A DNA stretch of 64,000 nucleotides. It comes from Mycobacterium pseudokansasii (GTDB lineage Bacteria; Actinomycetota; Actinomycetes; Mycobacteriales; Mycobacteriaceae). Made by a program: the position numbers and the translations under genes. Shown in pieces: positions 4,159 through 46,179 of the stretch. Each line of letters begins with the position of its first letter. The stretch's first letter is position 1. The notes under the pieces were generated by a model, which made no database searches, was not told the origin of the DNA, and saw only the letters and a list, made by a program, of their open reading frames with translations. The DNA lies in NCBI RefSeq assembly GCF_900566075.1, contig NZ_UPHU01000001.1, positions 2,666,001 through 2,730,000 on the forward strand. The letters run 5' to 3'.

Positions 4159-4889
4159 AAATCCCGGCAGCTACTGCTGCTGTTCCAGCCGCAGTTCCCG
4201 ACGGTCATACCCGTCGCGCCATTGTGCGCTTGCTGCTGGAGTCCGGATCGATCACCGCCAGCGAGATCGGCGATCGGTTGGGGCTGTCGGCCGCCGGCGT
4301 ACGTCGTCATCTTGACGCGCTCATCGAAACGGGTGACGCGGAGTCCGTACCCGCCGCGCCGTGGCAGCAGGCGGGACGCGGACGGCCCGCCAAGCGTTAC
4401 CGGTTGACGGCGGCCGGCCGGGGCAAGCTGGACCACTCATACGACGACTTGGCGTCGGCGGCGATGCGCCAACTGCGCGAGATCGGCGGCGAAGACGCGG
4501 TGCGGACGTTCGCGCGACGACGCATCGACGCGATACTCGCCGACGTCGCCCCGGCGGACGGCCACGCCGACGACGCGGTGGAAGCCGCCGCGGAGCGTAT
4601 CGCCGACGCGTTGACCAAAGCCGGTTACGTCGCCACCACCACCCGGGTGGGTGGGCCGATCCATGGTGTGCAAATCTGCCAGCACCACTGCCCGGTGGCC
4701 CATGTCGCCGAGGAGTTCCCGGAATTGTGCGAAGCCGAGCAGCAGGCCATGGCCGAAGTGCTTGGAACCCACGTGCAGCGGTTGGCGACCATCGTCAACG
4801 GCGACTGCGCCTGTACCACCCACGTGCCTTTAACCCCGGCGCCCAGCCCGCGCCGCGACACTACGAGCATCAAAGGAGCGTCGATATGA
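4155..4889 (+). CDS. sufR: Fe-S dependent transcriptional repressor SufR
   Basis: A 244-residue regulator. The N-terminal winged helix (about 20-90) has RRAIVRLLLESGSITASEI followed by a GLSAAGVRRHLDAL recognition helix. The C-terminal half holds cysteines in ICQHHCPVAH, PELCEAE and DCACTTH, the cluster-ligand region of SufR. It senses cellular Fe-S status and represses the suf operon. The start used is GTG 4155, inside the operator; longer in-frame starts exist upstream but would run through the promoter region. The stop overlaps the sufB ATG (ATGA), so it is the first gene of the suf operon. Equivalent to Rv1460. Confidence 0.88.
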   Translation: MKIPAATAAVPAAVPDGHTRRAIVRLLLESGSITASEIGDRLGLSAAGVRRHLDALIETGDAESVPAAPWQQAGRGRPAKRYRLTAAGRGKLDHSYDDLASAAMRQLREIGGEDAVRTFARRRIDAILADVAPADGHADDAVEAAAERIADALTKAGYVATTTRVGGPIHGVQICQHHCPVAHVAEEFPELCEAEQQAMAEVLGTHVQRLATIVNGDCACTTHVPLTPAPSPRRDTTSIKGASI

Positions 4890-7405
4890 CCCTCGAGGCC
4901 AGCAAGACCGCTGCCGAGCCGCTGACCCAGGCGGAGGCTATTGCTTCGCTGAGCCGCTACGGCTACGGCTGGGTCGACTCCGACATCGCCGGCGCCAGCG
5001 CTCAGCGCGGGCTTTCGGAGGCGGTGGTTCGCGACATCTCCGCGAAGAAGAACGAGCCCGAGTGGATGCTGCAGAACCGGCTGAAGGCGCTGCGCATCTT
5101 CGAGCGCAAGCCGATGCCGCGCTGGGGCTCCAACCTCGAGGGCATCGACTTCGACAACATCAAGTACTTCGTGCGATCGACCGAGAAGCAGGCAGCGAGC
5201 TGGGACGATTTGCCAGAGGACATCAAAAATACATACGACCGTTTAGGAATTCCCGAAGCGGAAAAACAAAGATTAGTTGCTGGAGTAGCGGCTCAGTATG
5301 AAAGCGAAGTAGTGTACCACCAGATCAGAGAGGATTTGGAATCCCAAGGCGTTATTTTCTTAGACACTGATACTGGTTTGCGAGAACATCCCGAAATATT
5401 TAAACAATATTTTGGAACTGTAATTCCTGCTGGCGATAATAAGTTTTCTGCACTCAATACCGCTGTGTGGAGTGGCGGGTCCTTTATTTACGTCCCGCCG
5501 GGTGTCCGCGTCGACATCCCCCTGCAGGCCTACTTTCGGATCAACACCGAGAACATGGGCCAGTTCGAGCGAACGCTGATCATTGCTGACGAGGGCTCCT
5601 ACGTGCACTACGTCGAGGGCTGTGTGCCAGCCGGTGAGCTCATCACGACCGCTGACGGAGACCTGAGGCCCATCGAGTCGATCCGTGTGGGTGACTACGT
5701 CAGTGGCCACGATGGGCGGCCACATCGTGTCACCGCGGTGCAGATGCGCGACCTCAACGGGGAGCTCTACAGCTTCACGCCGATGTCTCCGGCGAACAAG
5801 TTCTCCGTCACCGCGGAACATCCCTTGCTCATCGTTCCCCGCCACGAGGTGCGCGTCATGCGCAACGAGCGCAACGGATGGAAGGCAGAAGTTAACAGCG
5901 CCAAGCTGCGTCGCACCGAGCCGCGGTGGATTGCGGCGAAGGACGTTGCCGAGGGTGACTTCCTGATCTACCCCAAGCCGAAGCCGATCCCACACAAGAC
6001 GGTGCTGCCCCTCGAGTTCGCTCGGCTGGCGGGGTATTACCTGGCGGAAGGCCGTGCATGTCTGACTAATGGCTGTGAGTCACTGATCTTCTCGTTCCAC
6101 AGCGACGAATTCGAGTTCGTCGAGGAGGTTCGTCAAGCGTGCAAGTCGTTGTACGAGAAGTCAGGCTCTGTCCTGATCGAGGAGCACAAGCATTCGGCAC
6201 GCGTCACGGTCTACACGAAGGCGGGCTATGCGGCGATGCGTGACAACGTCGGCATCGGATCGTCGAACAAGAAGCTGTCGGATCTCTTGATGCGTCAAGA
6301 CGAGACGTTCCTCCGCGAGCTCGTCGACGCCTATGTCAACGGGGACGGCAATGTAACGAAGCGCGGCGGCGCCCTCTGGAAGCGCGTGCATACGACTTCC
6401 CGTGTCTGGGCATTCCAATTGCAGTCCATCCTCGCGCGGTTGGGTCATTACGCCACAGTCGAATTGCGTCGTCCTGGCGGTCCAGGAGTTATCCAGGGTC
6501 GTGACATCATGCGCAAGGACATCTACCAGGTCCAGTGGACCGAGGGCGGCCACGGGCCTAAGCAAGCGCGGGATTGCGGTGACTACTTTGCGGTGCCGAT
6601 CAAAAAGCGTCAGGTCCGAGAAGCGCACGAGCGGGTCTACAACCTCGATGTCGAGGAGCCGGACAGCTTCCTCGCCTACGGGTTCGCGGTGCACAACTGC
6701 ACTGCTCCTATTTACAAGTCGGACTCGCTACACTCCGCGGTGGTCGAAATCATCGTGAAACCGCATGCGCGCGTGCGTTATACCACGATCCAGAACTGGT
6801 CGAACAACGTCTACAACCTGGTCACCAAGCGGGCCCGCGCCGAGGCCGGCGCCACCATGGAGTGGGTCGACGGCAACATCGGATCCAAGGTGACCATGAA
6901 GTACCCGGCGGTCTGGATGACCGGGGAGCACGCCAAAGGCGAAGTGCTGTCGGTGGCGTTCGCCGGCGAGGACCAGCACCAGGACACCGGTGCGAAGATG
7001 CTGCATCTGGCGCCCAACACGTCGAGCAACATCGTGTCGAAGTCGGTAGCGCGCGGCGGCGGCCGCACCTCCTACCGGGGCCTCGTCCAGGTAAACAAGG
7101 GGGCGCACGGTTCCAAGTCGAGCGTGAAATGCGATGCGCTGCTGGTCGATACGATCAGCCGTAGCGACACCTACCCCTACGTCGACATCCGCGAGGACGA
7201 CGTCACCATGGGCCATGAGGCCACCGTGTCCAAGGTCAGTGAGAACCAGCTGTTCTACCTGATGAGCCGCGGGATGACCGAGGACGAGGCCATGGCGATG
7301 GTGGTGCGCGGCTTCGTCGAGCCGATTGCCAAGGAACTGCCGATGGAGTATGCGCTGGAGCTCAACCGGCTGATCGAGCTGCAGATGGAGGGCTCCGTAG
7401 GATGA
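4886..7405 (+). CDS. sufB: Fe-S cluster scaffold SufB precursor with intein
   Basis: An 839-residue precursor. The SufB exteins are residues 1-245 and 605-839, interrupted by a 359-residue intein at residues 246-604. The extein contains GGSFIYVPPGV, MGQFERTLIIADEGSYVHYVEG, then CTAPIYKSDSLHSAVVEI and the C-terminal DTYPYVDIREDDVTMGHEA region of SufB, which assembles nascent [4Fe-4S] clusters with SufC and SufD. A good ribosome site (AAGGAG) precedes ATG 4886. The mature protein would be about 480 residues, the usual SufB length. An AT-rich, foreign-looking codon patch occupies about 5218-5490 of the first extein although the protein there stays typical of mycobacterial SufB. Equivalent to Rv1461. 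Confidence 0.95.
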   Translation: MTLEASKTAAEPLTQAEAIASLSRYGYGWVDSDIAGASAQRGLSEAVVRDISAKKNEPEWMLQNRLKALRIFERKPMPRWGSNLEGIDFDNIKYFVRSTEKQAASWDDLPEDIKNTYDRLGIPEAEKQRLVAGVAAQYESEVVYHQIREDLESQGVIFLDTDTGLREHPEIFKQYFGTVIPAGDNKFSALNTAVWSGGSFIYVPPGVRVDIPLQAYFRINTENMGQFERTLIIADEGSYVHYVEGCVPAGELITTADGDLRPIESIRVGDYVSGHDGRPHRVTAVQMRDLNGELYSFTPMSPANKFSVTAEHPLLIVPRHEVRVMRNERNGWKAEVNSAKLRRTEPRWIAAKDVAEGDFLIYPKPKPIPHKTVLPLEFARLAGYYLAEGRACLTNGCESLIFSFHSDEFEFVEEVRQACKSLYEKSGSVLIEEHKHSARVTVYTKAGYAAMRDNVGIGSSNKKLSDLLMRQDETFLRELVDAYVNGDGNVTKRGGALWKRVHTTSRVWAFQLQSILARLGHYATVELRRPGGPGVIQGRDIMRKDIYQVQWTEGGHGPKQARDCGDYFAVPIKKRQVREAHERVYNLDVEEPDSFLAYGFAVHNCTAPIYKSDSLHSAVVEIIVKPHARVRYTTIQNWSNNVYNLVTKRARAEAGATMEWVDGNIGSKVTMKYPAVWMTGEHAKGEVLSVAFAGEDQHQDTGAKMLHLAPNTSSNIVSKSVARGGGRTSYRGLVQVNKGAHGSKSSVKCDALLVDTISRSDTYPYVDIREDDVTMGHEATVSKVSENQLFYLMSRGMTEDEAMAMVVRGFVEPIAKELPMEYALELNRLIELQMEGSVG
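5218..5490 (+). other. AT-rich, atypical-codon patch inside sufB
   Basis: By direct count positions 5221-5460 are 40% G+C (96 of 240 bases), against roughly 65% in the sequence on either side. The patch uses TTA leucine three times and AGA arginine twice, codons very rare in the rest of the window, plus many ATT, GGA and GTA codons. The reading frame is uninterrupted and the encoded protein is ordinary SufB. The edges are abrupt: GC-rich codons resume at GGCGGG near 5473. It ends about 130 bp before the intein. Confidence 0.9.
5621..6697 (+). mobile_element. SufB (Pps1-type) intein with LAGLIDADG endonuclease
   Basis: Codons 246-604 of sufB. It starts at Cys (CVPAGELITTADGDLRPIES, block A) and ends in HN before the Cys of CTAPIYK, the canonical class 1 splice junctions. 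Block B is FSVTAEHPLL. A LAGLIDADG-type endonuclease is indicated by LAGYYLAEG near 6025 and by LVDAYVNGDGN near 6320, each with an acidic residue in the expected place. The terminal blocks are RVYNLDVEEPDSFLAYGFAVHN. The length of 359 residues equals that of the H37Rv SufB intein. All splicing residues look intact, so it should splice and the endonuclease may be active. One line counted at 6121-6180 is 55% G+C, a little below the host. Confidence 0.95.
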
Positions 7406-45269: not shown

Positions 45270-45719
45270 TCAGCAGCACGACGTCGCCGCGGCCTCGGCG
45301 CCGCAGCACGTAGTGTCCTCGTCGCCGGGGCGAGCGGGGCTGGTGCCGAAGGTTTCGGAGTCGGCCAACACGGTGTAGACCTCCCAGCGTTCCCCGCCGG
45401 GGCCGGTGACCCAGACCTTGTCCTGGGTGGCAAAACAACAGGTGGTTCCCATCTCCTCCTCGGTGAACATGCCGGCCTCGGTCAGCCTGGCGATTTCGGC
45501 ATGCACTGTGGCGCTGGAGTCGACCTCCACGCCGAGATGGTTCAGGCTGCCGCCGGAGCCGGGGTTTTCCAGCAGCACCAGTTTCAGCGGCGGATCGGCG
45601 ATCGCAAAGTTGGCGTAGCCGGGCTTGATCTTGGCCGGTTGCGCACCAAATAGGTTGGAGTAGAACGTGATAGCGCTTTGCAGGTCATCGACGTTGAGGG
45701 CCAGTTGCACACGAGACAT
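45270..45719 (-). CDS. cadI: Glyoxalase-fold protein CadI/ArsI-like
   Basis: A 149-residue vicinal oxygen chelate protein starting MSRVQLALNVDDLQSAITFYSNLFG. It has His61 (LNHLGVEV), GGERWEVYTVLAD and the vicinal pair Cys94-Cys95 (GTTCCFATQDK). The pair is the thiol site of ArsI C-As lyases, which demethylate trivalent organoarsenicals; the closest M. tuberculosis protein I recall is cadmium-induced CadI (Rv2641). The C-terminus adds two further CC motifs (TTCCGAEA, TSCC), unusual for the family. GGAGG lies nine bases before ATG 45719. It is divergent from the second arsR gene and shares its operator region. Confidence 0.86.
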   Translation of the reverse strand: MSRVQLALNVDDLQSAITFYSNLFGAQPAKIKPGYANFAIADPPLKLVLLENPGSGGSLNHLGVEVDSSATVHAEIARLTEAGMFTEEEMGTTCCFATQDKVWVTGPGGERWEVYTVLADSETFGTSPARPGDEDTTCCGAEAAATSCC

Positions 45720-45742
45720 CGGAAACAACCTCCAATCTGTTA

Positions 45743-45796
45743 GACATATATCGAACTAGTGCCGATGCCCATGATGCCATCTTTTTGATATATGTC
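45743..45796. promoter_or_regulatory. Paired inverted GACATATATC operators between cadI and arsR2
   Basis: GACATATATC at 45743-45752 and its exact reverse complement GATATATGTC at 45787-45796 lie 44 bp apart between the divergent genes, in an AT-rich stretch. Each is placed near one start, so one regulator, probably the adjacent ArsR-type protein, could control both directions. Confidence 0.6.
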
Positions 45797-45819
45797 AAGG
45801 TATCTGGCATGGTGGAATT

Positions 45820-46179
45820 ATGCCTAAAGCGTTGCCCGTGATCGATATCTCTCAACCGGTGTGCTGCGCTCCAGTGGCCGCGGGGCCGATGAGCGACGAC
45901 GACGCCCTCGAGGTGGCACTGCGGCTTAAGGCCTTGGCCGATCCGGCCCGGGTCAAGATCATGTCGTATCTGCTCAGCTCCAGCGCAGGCGAGCAGACCA
46001 GCGGCGAGTTGGCCGCGGCCCTCAGCCTGTCCGACGGCACGGTCAGCCATCACCTGGCCCAGTTGCGCAATGCGGGCCTGGTCGTCTCCGACCGTCGCGG
46101 TATGTACGTCTTCCACCGCGCCCACCCGCAGGGCCTGCAGGCACTGTGCGCGGTTCTGGACCCGCGCTGCTGTAGCTGA
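45820..46179 (+). CDS. Second ArsR/SmtB-family regulator (Rv2640c-like)
   Basis: A 119-residue winged-helix repressor: LRLKALADPARVKIMSYLLSSSAGEQTSGELAAALSLSDGTVSHHLAQLRNAGLVVSDRRG. Unlike the other ArsR here, alpha-3 has no cysteine pair (EQTSGELA). Instead it has Cys15-Cys16 at the N-terminus and Cys117-Cys118 at the end, a CC pair at each end that could form an inter-subunit metal site. It closely matches my memory of H37Rv Rv2640c, which also neighbours cadI. Likely inducer: cadmium, lead or arsenite. Divergent from cadI. Confidence 0.87.
   Translation: MPKALPVIDISQPVCCAPVAAGPMSDDDALEVALRLKALADPARVKIMSYLLSSSAGEQTSGELAAALSLSDGTVSHHLAQLRNAGLVVSDRRGMYVFHRAHPQGLQALCAVLDPRCCS

Follow-up and report, generated by a model that had tools for sequence, protein, structure and literature searches.

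An AT-rich, synonymous tract in mycobacterial sufB that may be an old alternative allele of single origin

The sufB gene in the 64-kb window (the whole stretch of DNA analysed, from a genome of 6.4 Mb that its sufB relatives place in the mycobacterial genus) contains a sharply bounded AT-rich tract. With about even confidence, we read the tract as an alternative version of a 97-codon sufB segment, an old allele that originated once within mycobacteria through a conversion-like event and was then shaped by descent and overwriting. Among the open-licence papers listed in literature searches, none refers in its title or abstract opening to such a tract in this gene of mycobacteria.

Results

The tract differs at silent positions and encodes an ordinary SufB

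The sufB gene, which encodes the Fe-S cluster assembly scaffold, runs on the forward strand from the ATG at 4886 to 7405, as delimited by its open reading frame and the extein/intein boundaries; it carries an in-frame intein, and its extein comprises 480 amino acids. The initial annotation had described an AT-rich island inside this gene, and the island is real: positions 5221 to 5460 have a G+C content of 0.400, the minimum among the 240-bp stretches of the 64-kb window and six standard deviations below their mean (0.659, sd 0.043). The second-lowest non-overlapping 240-bp stretch, at 45621 to 45860, has a G+C content of 0.487. GC3 is 0.32 over codons 112-192, compared to 0.90 upstream and 0.86 downstream, and our codon count matched the three TTA (codons 120, 130 and 159) and two AGA (codons 129 and 148) noted before. 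Sharp edges had been claimed as well, and a change-point fit bore this out: for this genome alone the best-fitting tract comprises codons 114-201 (5225 to 5488), with an AT3 of 0.67 within and 0.11 beyond it and a gain of 55.4 log units. With the edges typical of the 15 genes in which we found such a tract (hereafter carriers), it covers extein codons 105-201, at 5198 to 5488 of the forward strand. The low G+C content is carried by silent positions and the protein is ordinary, a typical SufB as had been stated: the 188 residues around the patch are 81-96% identical in the 132 other genomes of the genus with an unsplit, almost full-length best match (144 of 148 genomes matched, and ten matches split by an intein and one cut by a contig end were excluded).

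The tract occurs in a minority of mycobacterial sufB genes

We compared 165 sufB genes, consisting of 143 of the 144 protein-matching genomes (148 drawn), 19 extra genes picked from the stronger patch matches in a draw of 396, and three picked for intein a (see below); because the 19 were selected by patch match, the sample is enriched in carriers. An AT-rich tract with similar edges is present in 15 of the 165. The GC3 over codons 105-201 is 0.36-0.54 in 15 of 162 genes, 0.63-0.80 in 18 and at least 0.82 in 129, and it is 0.81-0.89 in the remaining three, those selected for intein a. Across mycobacterial sufB the dip is thus not the rule. Using the patch as a blastn query, 80 of 148 genus genomes matched (E ≤ 0.001), many at 67-74% identity, which is also roughly the DNA identity between the patch and ordinary alleles. 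A degenerate 30-base signature at codons 143-152 (5312 to 5341, forward strand), which includes the AGA codon for R148, picked out 16 of 392 genus genomes, namely the 15 carriers and an eroded relative (G026), and an extra search for further close relatives gave only genus genomes already covered. The patch exists with and without an intein in the same gene: among the 15 carriers, intein a is present in seven, eight lack any sufB intein, and site b or c is occupied in none.

Shared codons point to one origin

The best-fit tract edges across the 15 carriers fall at codons 97-115 and 191-212. Carriers agree in codon at a fraction of 0.594 of positions, whereas the in-tract codon usage of each genome predicts 0.395 (the excess holds in 105 of 105 pairs), and six codons (I122 ATT, V131 GTT, A132 GCT, V134 GTA, R148 AGA and G164 GGT) are identical in all 15. 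Carriers therefore share codons far beyond what codon usage accounts for, which argues for a single origin of the tract. The ratio of codon differences between carriers to those between carriers and non-carriers, calculated from ten carriers (one per close cluster) and six non-carriers, is 0.54-0.87 within codons 101-200 and reaches 0.93 and 1.25 in the adjoining two bins, so the shared identity ends at the tract edges and no flanks have hitch-hiked with it. A recent burst in which long pieces spread is made less likely by the lack of shared flanks.

Carriers are not set apart by their residues: the majority residue differs between 14 carriers and the non-carriers at only 3 of 97 positions. 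Cyanobacteria and low-GC bacteria had been considered as donors, and this result makes cyanobacterial or Firmicute donors unlikely. The suggestion of a recent transfer fared no better, because 15 scattered species carry the tract and carriers differ from each other more in the tract (mean codon difference 0.41) than in the flanks (0.27). What stands of the proposed gene-conversion tract is that an ancient one is possible; a recent one is unsupported.

Remnants and tract-free sisters suggest repeated loss

An rpoB tree built from 27 genomes (30 searched, 29 matched, 27 loci used) places the carriers in scattered positions among tract-free relatives, many deep nodes being weak (support 31-56), and distances in the patch correlate with rpoB distances with a Spearman coefficient of 0.52, compared to 0.67 for the flanks. 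Two genomes, G113 and G216, have the ordinary allele though they are sisters of carrier G045 (support 100). In G239, sister of carrier G378 (support 73), diagnostic codons are left only at 105 and 129-132; G105 has 10 of 28 diagnostic codons left, eight of them within 179-201; and G075, G115, G390, G026, G319, G186 and G060 have 25-36% left. The rpoB of G319 is broken over several frames in a one-contig assembly, perhaps through sequencing errors, and its sufB reading needs care. Together, the remnants and the tract-free sisters of carriers suggest that the tract was formerly more widespread and has since been overwritten or worn away, often piecemeal.

Descent of the patch is not clean, since a star tree fits it as well as the rpoB tree does (-697.6 and -696.8, respectively), whereas the flanks strongly favour the rpoB tree. 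In the sister pairs G000/G091, G340/G188 and G023/G064 the patch difference is two to three times the flank difference, an excess that is not seen in the trio G074/G219/G091; between G000 and G091 the two halves of the patch differ by 0.42 and 0.54, compared to 0.11 for rpoB. The scatter of carriers, and pairs such as G000/G091 that are far apart in the patch and near in rpoB, would suit a lateral spread after the species had split, from an unseen AT-rich source (for example, a phage-borne sufB) whose copies are now ameliorating in each host. We regard such a spread as improbable, because no common flanks lie beside the tract and because its similar edges would demand similar breakpoints every time.

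The 5' end of rpoB has an AT3-rich tract of its own in the ten top-scoring of the 27 genomes (L308, L310, L307 and others, carriers and non-carriers among them), which starts at codons 2-6, ends at codons 42-100 and has an AT3 of 0.34-0.51, compared to 0.06-0.11 overall; the frame was read from stop to stop, and a few upstream codons may be non-coding.

No outside donor in the collections searched

Within the collections searched, there is no outside donor for the tract. The best long match of the patch DNA outside the genus, among 396 phylum genomes at E ≤ 1e-15, is 70% identical over 253 bases; among the matches listed, none outside the genus exceeds 72% identity, and the one at 72% spans 155 bases. 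The low-GC donor that the initial annotation had envisaged has no close counterpart outside the genus among the matches listed. Phages and plasmids reach at most 68% among the matches listed (20 of 39 plasmid records, the other 19 lying in the 60-80% band), and where an annotated gene lies beneath such a match it is sufB or an Fe-S assembly gene. The 30-base signature has no exact match in viral contigs, the N-extein protein found nothing close in phages and viral contigs, and none of the 20 phage records with a protein match at E ≤ 1e-10 bears the label mycobacteriophage. The low phage and plasmid identities and the lack of an exact signature match in viral contigs count against lateral spread; on the other side, seven contigs in the viral catalogue IMG/VR encode sufB relatives.

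One of the seven contigs, L340, carries at 3 to 1328 a low-GC, actinobacterial-type sufB (locus GC 0.39) whose 5' side is lost at the contig end and whose GC3 is 0.34 in the first 624 bases; other AT-rich sequence follows the gene. Three further contigs, L337-L339, have sufB genes with a GC3 of 0.73. We rejected L340 as the donor, given that its patch residues are 82% identical and that its DNA identity to carriers averages 0.69, compared to 0.83 among carriers. L340 is evidence only for the existence of an AT-rich sufB of actinobacterial type on a contig that the catalogue classes as viral.

Composition of the tract is better modelled as steady than as fading on two of three trees

A two-state GC3 model was fitted to 14 carriers, excluding G328, which has a small genome and a low flank GC3. 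With both the rpoB tree and the patch tree, the modelled equilibrium GC3 of the tract is about 0.45, compared to 0.84-0.90 in the flanks. Fixing the tract equilibrium at 0.89 is 33 (rpoB tree) and 21 (patch tree) log units worse than a steady state, and 23 and 10 log units worse, respectively, with rate variation among sites. On a star tree, fading from a root GC3 of 0.15 and a steady state differ by 0.4 log units. A fading relic is therefore disfavoured on the rpoB and patch trees, but not on the star tree, where its equally good fit speaks for lateral spread. If inheritance was tree-like, the model indicates that the AT-richness of the tract has been maintained, a preference that a star-like history removes. 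Since a foreign tract should fade, a preference for a steady state counts against a conversion origin; in the reading of an old alternative allele, the AT-rich state would not have decayed at the pace of the flanks, for which the star tree again gives no preference. A triplet count yielded 10 AT-to-GC and 7 GC-to-AT changes in the tract and 13 and 17 in the flanks; recombination between the three genomes confounds these values.

A steady state near 0.45, together with synonymous change that is faster than in the flanks in several pairs, would be expected if a GC-favouring force (codon selection or biased conversion) were absent here in some lineages and mutation alone set a GC3 of about 45%. 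This explanation is very improbable in our view, as it leaves the sharp and similar edges, the one origin and the tract-free relatives unexplained. The advantage of a steady state over fading on two trees would also agree with selection at the nucleotide level, which would keep the tract AT-rich, for instance, because the recoded target and its diverged flanks resist homing at site b or because the DNA or RNA has a function; we consider such selection unlikely. Consistent with it, 30 near-invariant tract sites were observed in the 14 carriers, compared to 16.6 ± 3.7 in simulations, but rate variation is no stronger in the tract (alpha about 0.8-1.1) than in the flanks (about 0.5), and the excess may for this reason be ordinary and is not counted as function.

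A modest RNA candidate

Selection on the RNA itself had been put forward for the island, and the most that speaks for it is a modest predicted hairpin. Folding of the whole tract is hardly better than in non-carriers: relative to codon shuffles, the mean z for the whole tract is -0.89 in the 15 carriers and -0.56 in 45 sampled non-carriers. The possible local hairpin, a 10-pair stem with a bulge, lies at 5318 to 5380 of the forward strand (codons 145-165), and the region of codons 144-165 has a mean z of -1.40, the best of 14 windows. Its ten outer pairs are unchanged in 13-15 of the 15 carriers. Non-carriers, however, fold this region to a similar energy (mean -19.4 in 150 non-carriers; -13.7 to -20.5 in carriers). 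Compensatory changes were seen at 5 of 62 predicted pairs, with a covariation term of -1.21. The hairpin of codons 144-165 is thus the best RNA candidate, at modest strength and as a predicted structure, and the weak folding and similar energies speak against selection for an RNA function. An inverted repeat surrounds codons 145-164, its stem built of the carriers' AT-ending codons. The tract has no Rfam match, and no overlapping frame is open in the 15 carriers, with 2-11 stops in the +1 and +2 frames and 1-6 in the three reverse frames. A promoter scan gave one weak sigma-70-like match at 5412 to 5440, no more than in shuffled sequences.

Inteins do not account for the origin of the tract

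We designate the intein sites of sufB a, b and c, a naming of our own that is separate from that in the literature. SufB inteins sit at different sites in different mycobacteria, according to PMC8891592, and the intein of M. leprae is named SufB-b in PMC5050341. Intein a of this genome (359 amino acids, 5621 to 6697, forward strand, GC 0.61, GC3 0.78) is outside the AT-rich tract, and its site, after codon 245, is occupied in 12 of 392 genomes (protein search, E ≤ 1e-60). Site b, between extein codons 139 and 140 (5302 to 5303), is within the tract and empty here, and holds an intein of 372-378 amino acids in 13 of 165 genes. Site c, between codons 198 and 199 (5479 to 5480), is three codons from the tract end and likewise empty, and is occupied by inteins of 385-386 amino acids in 2 of 165 genes, those of the 3.3-Mb genomes G075 and G115. 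A 2001 paper in NAR reportedly concerns the endonuclease of the mycobacterial pps1 (sufB) intein.

The present case resembles intein homing accompanied by exon co-conversion: two intein sites fall at the tract, and some b hosts have only pieces of it. We rejected co-conversion with intein a or b as the origin of the tract, because the flanks are not common to the hosts and eight of the 15 carriers are intein-free. The 13 b hosts, set against 40 of the 136 others, have no common exon flanks (ratio 1.06 for codons 120-159), and codons 202-245, between the tract and intein a, are GC-rich and not shared. Over almost all of the gene, carriers with intein a resemble one another more than they resemble other carriers (ratios 0.53-1.05), as kinship predicts. 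The measured inteins are themselves GC-rich (GC 0.55-0.70), so the AT-ending codons were not brought by inteins.

Homing at site b also bears on selection for a recoded target. Intein b is present in none of the 15 carriers and in 13 of the 150 other genes, a difference that is not significant (p = 0.61). Among hosts of intein a, b is present in 0 of 7 with the full tract and in 3 of 4 without it (p = 0.024), a subset picked after the fact; G235, which has inteins a and b and no tract, is outside this test and brings the tract-free a hosts to 4 of 5. The two-intein (a and b) sufB genes are L244, L345, L346 and L344 in G105, G391, G167 and G235, respectively. Over 24 bases across site b, an assumed target length, carriers have 4.2 mismatches to the nearest b host, compared to 1.4 in 136 others, which would favour resistance to b. 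A general immunity to homing is contradicted by the c junction, at which carriers are nearer to the c hosts (4.6 mismatches) than others are (7.2), and AT3 has no maximum at the intein sites, which counts against nucleotide-level selection. G186 has none of 13 diagnostic codons in 129-163 and keeps some on either side, a pattern that erasure of the middle by homing at b would produce. Against erasure at b, the b hosts G029 and G105 still hold tract codons near the site (137 in G029; 130 and 155 in G105).

Discussion

Taken as an old alternative allele, the tract would go back to a single gene-conversion-like event, in which an AT-rich copy encoding the same protein replaced the segment, and would then have been passed on mainly by descent. 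It would often have been overwritten, in whole or in part, through recombination with the ordinary GC-rich allele, in some cases perhaps by homing of intein b. A DNA divergence of about 30% separates it from ordinary alleles and may protect it against small-scale conversion; shielding by this divergence, homing pressure or a lost GC bias may underlie its persistence.

Intragenic mosaic alleles, of which penicillin-binding-protein mosaics and phage/host psbA (PMC3900582) are examples, resemble the sufB tract: one bounded stretch within a conserved gene belongs to a different allele class, its edges are sharp, its origin is single and recombinants arose later. Unlike these, the sufB tract is shared by many species and leaves the encoded protein unchanged; it is strongly AT-rich against a GC-rich genus background, the collections searched gave no donor, and the models on two trees favour a steady state over fading. 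Synonymous constraint elements and structured coding RNAs likewise combine an unusual synonymous composition with an unchanged protein, but the tract has no convincing conserved fold to place it among them.

More speculatively, the two synonymous versions of the segment might constitute a trans-species polymorphism in which intein homing at sites inside the segment keeps selecting for a diverged target, amounting to an arms race over silent codons. Only the GC-rich version has been observed with intein b; we nonetheless hold this idea to be decidedly unlikely.

A local patch of low G+C content is not necessarily a recent transfer. If the tract is old and maintained, it would represent a sharply bounded and purely synonymous allele class that has outlived species splits in a GC-rich genus, and would bear on the lifetime of foreign-looking composition, on how mycobacteria uphold their high GC3 and on how selfish inteins shape silent variation.
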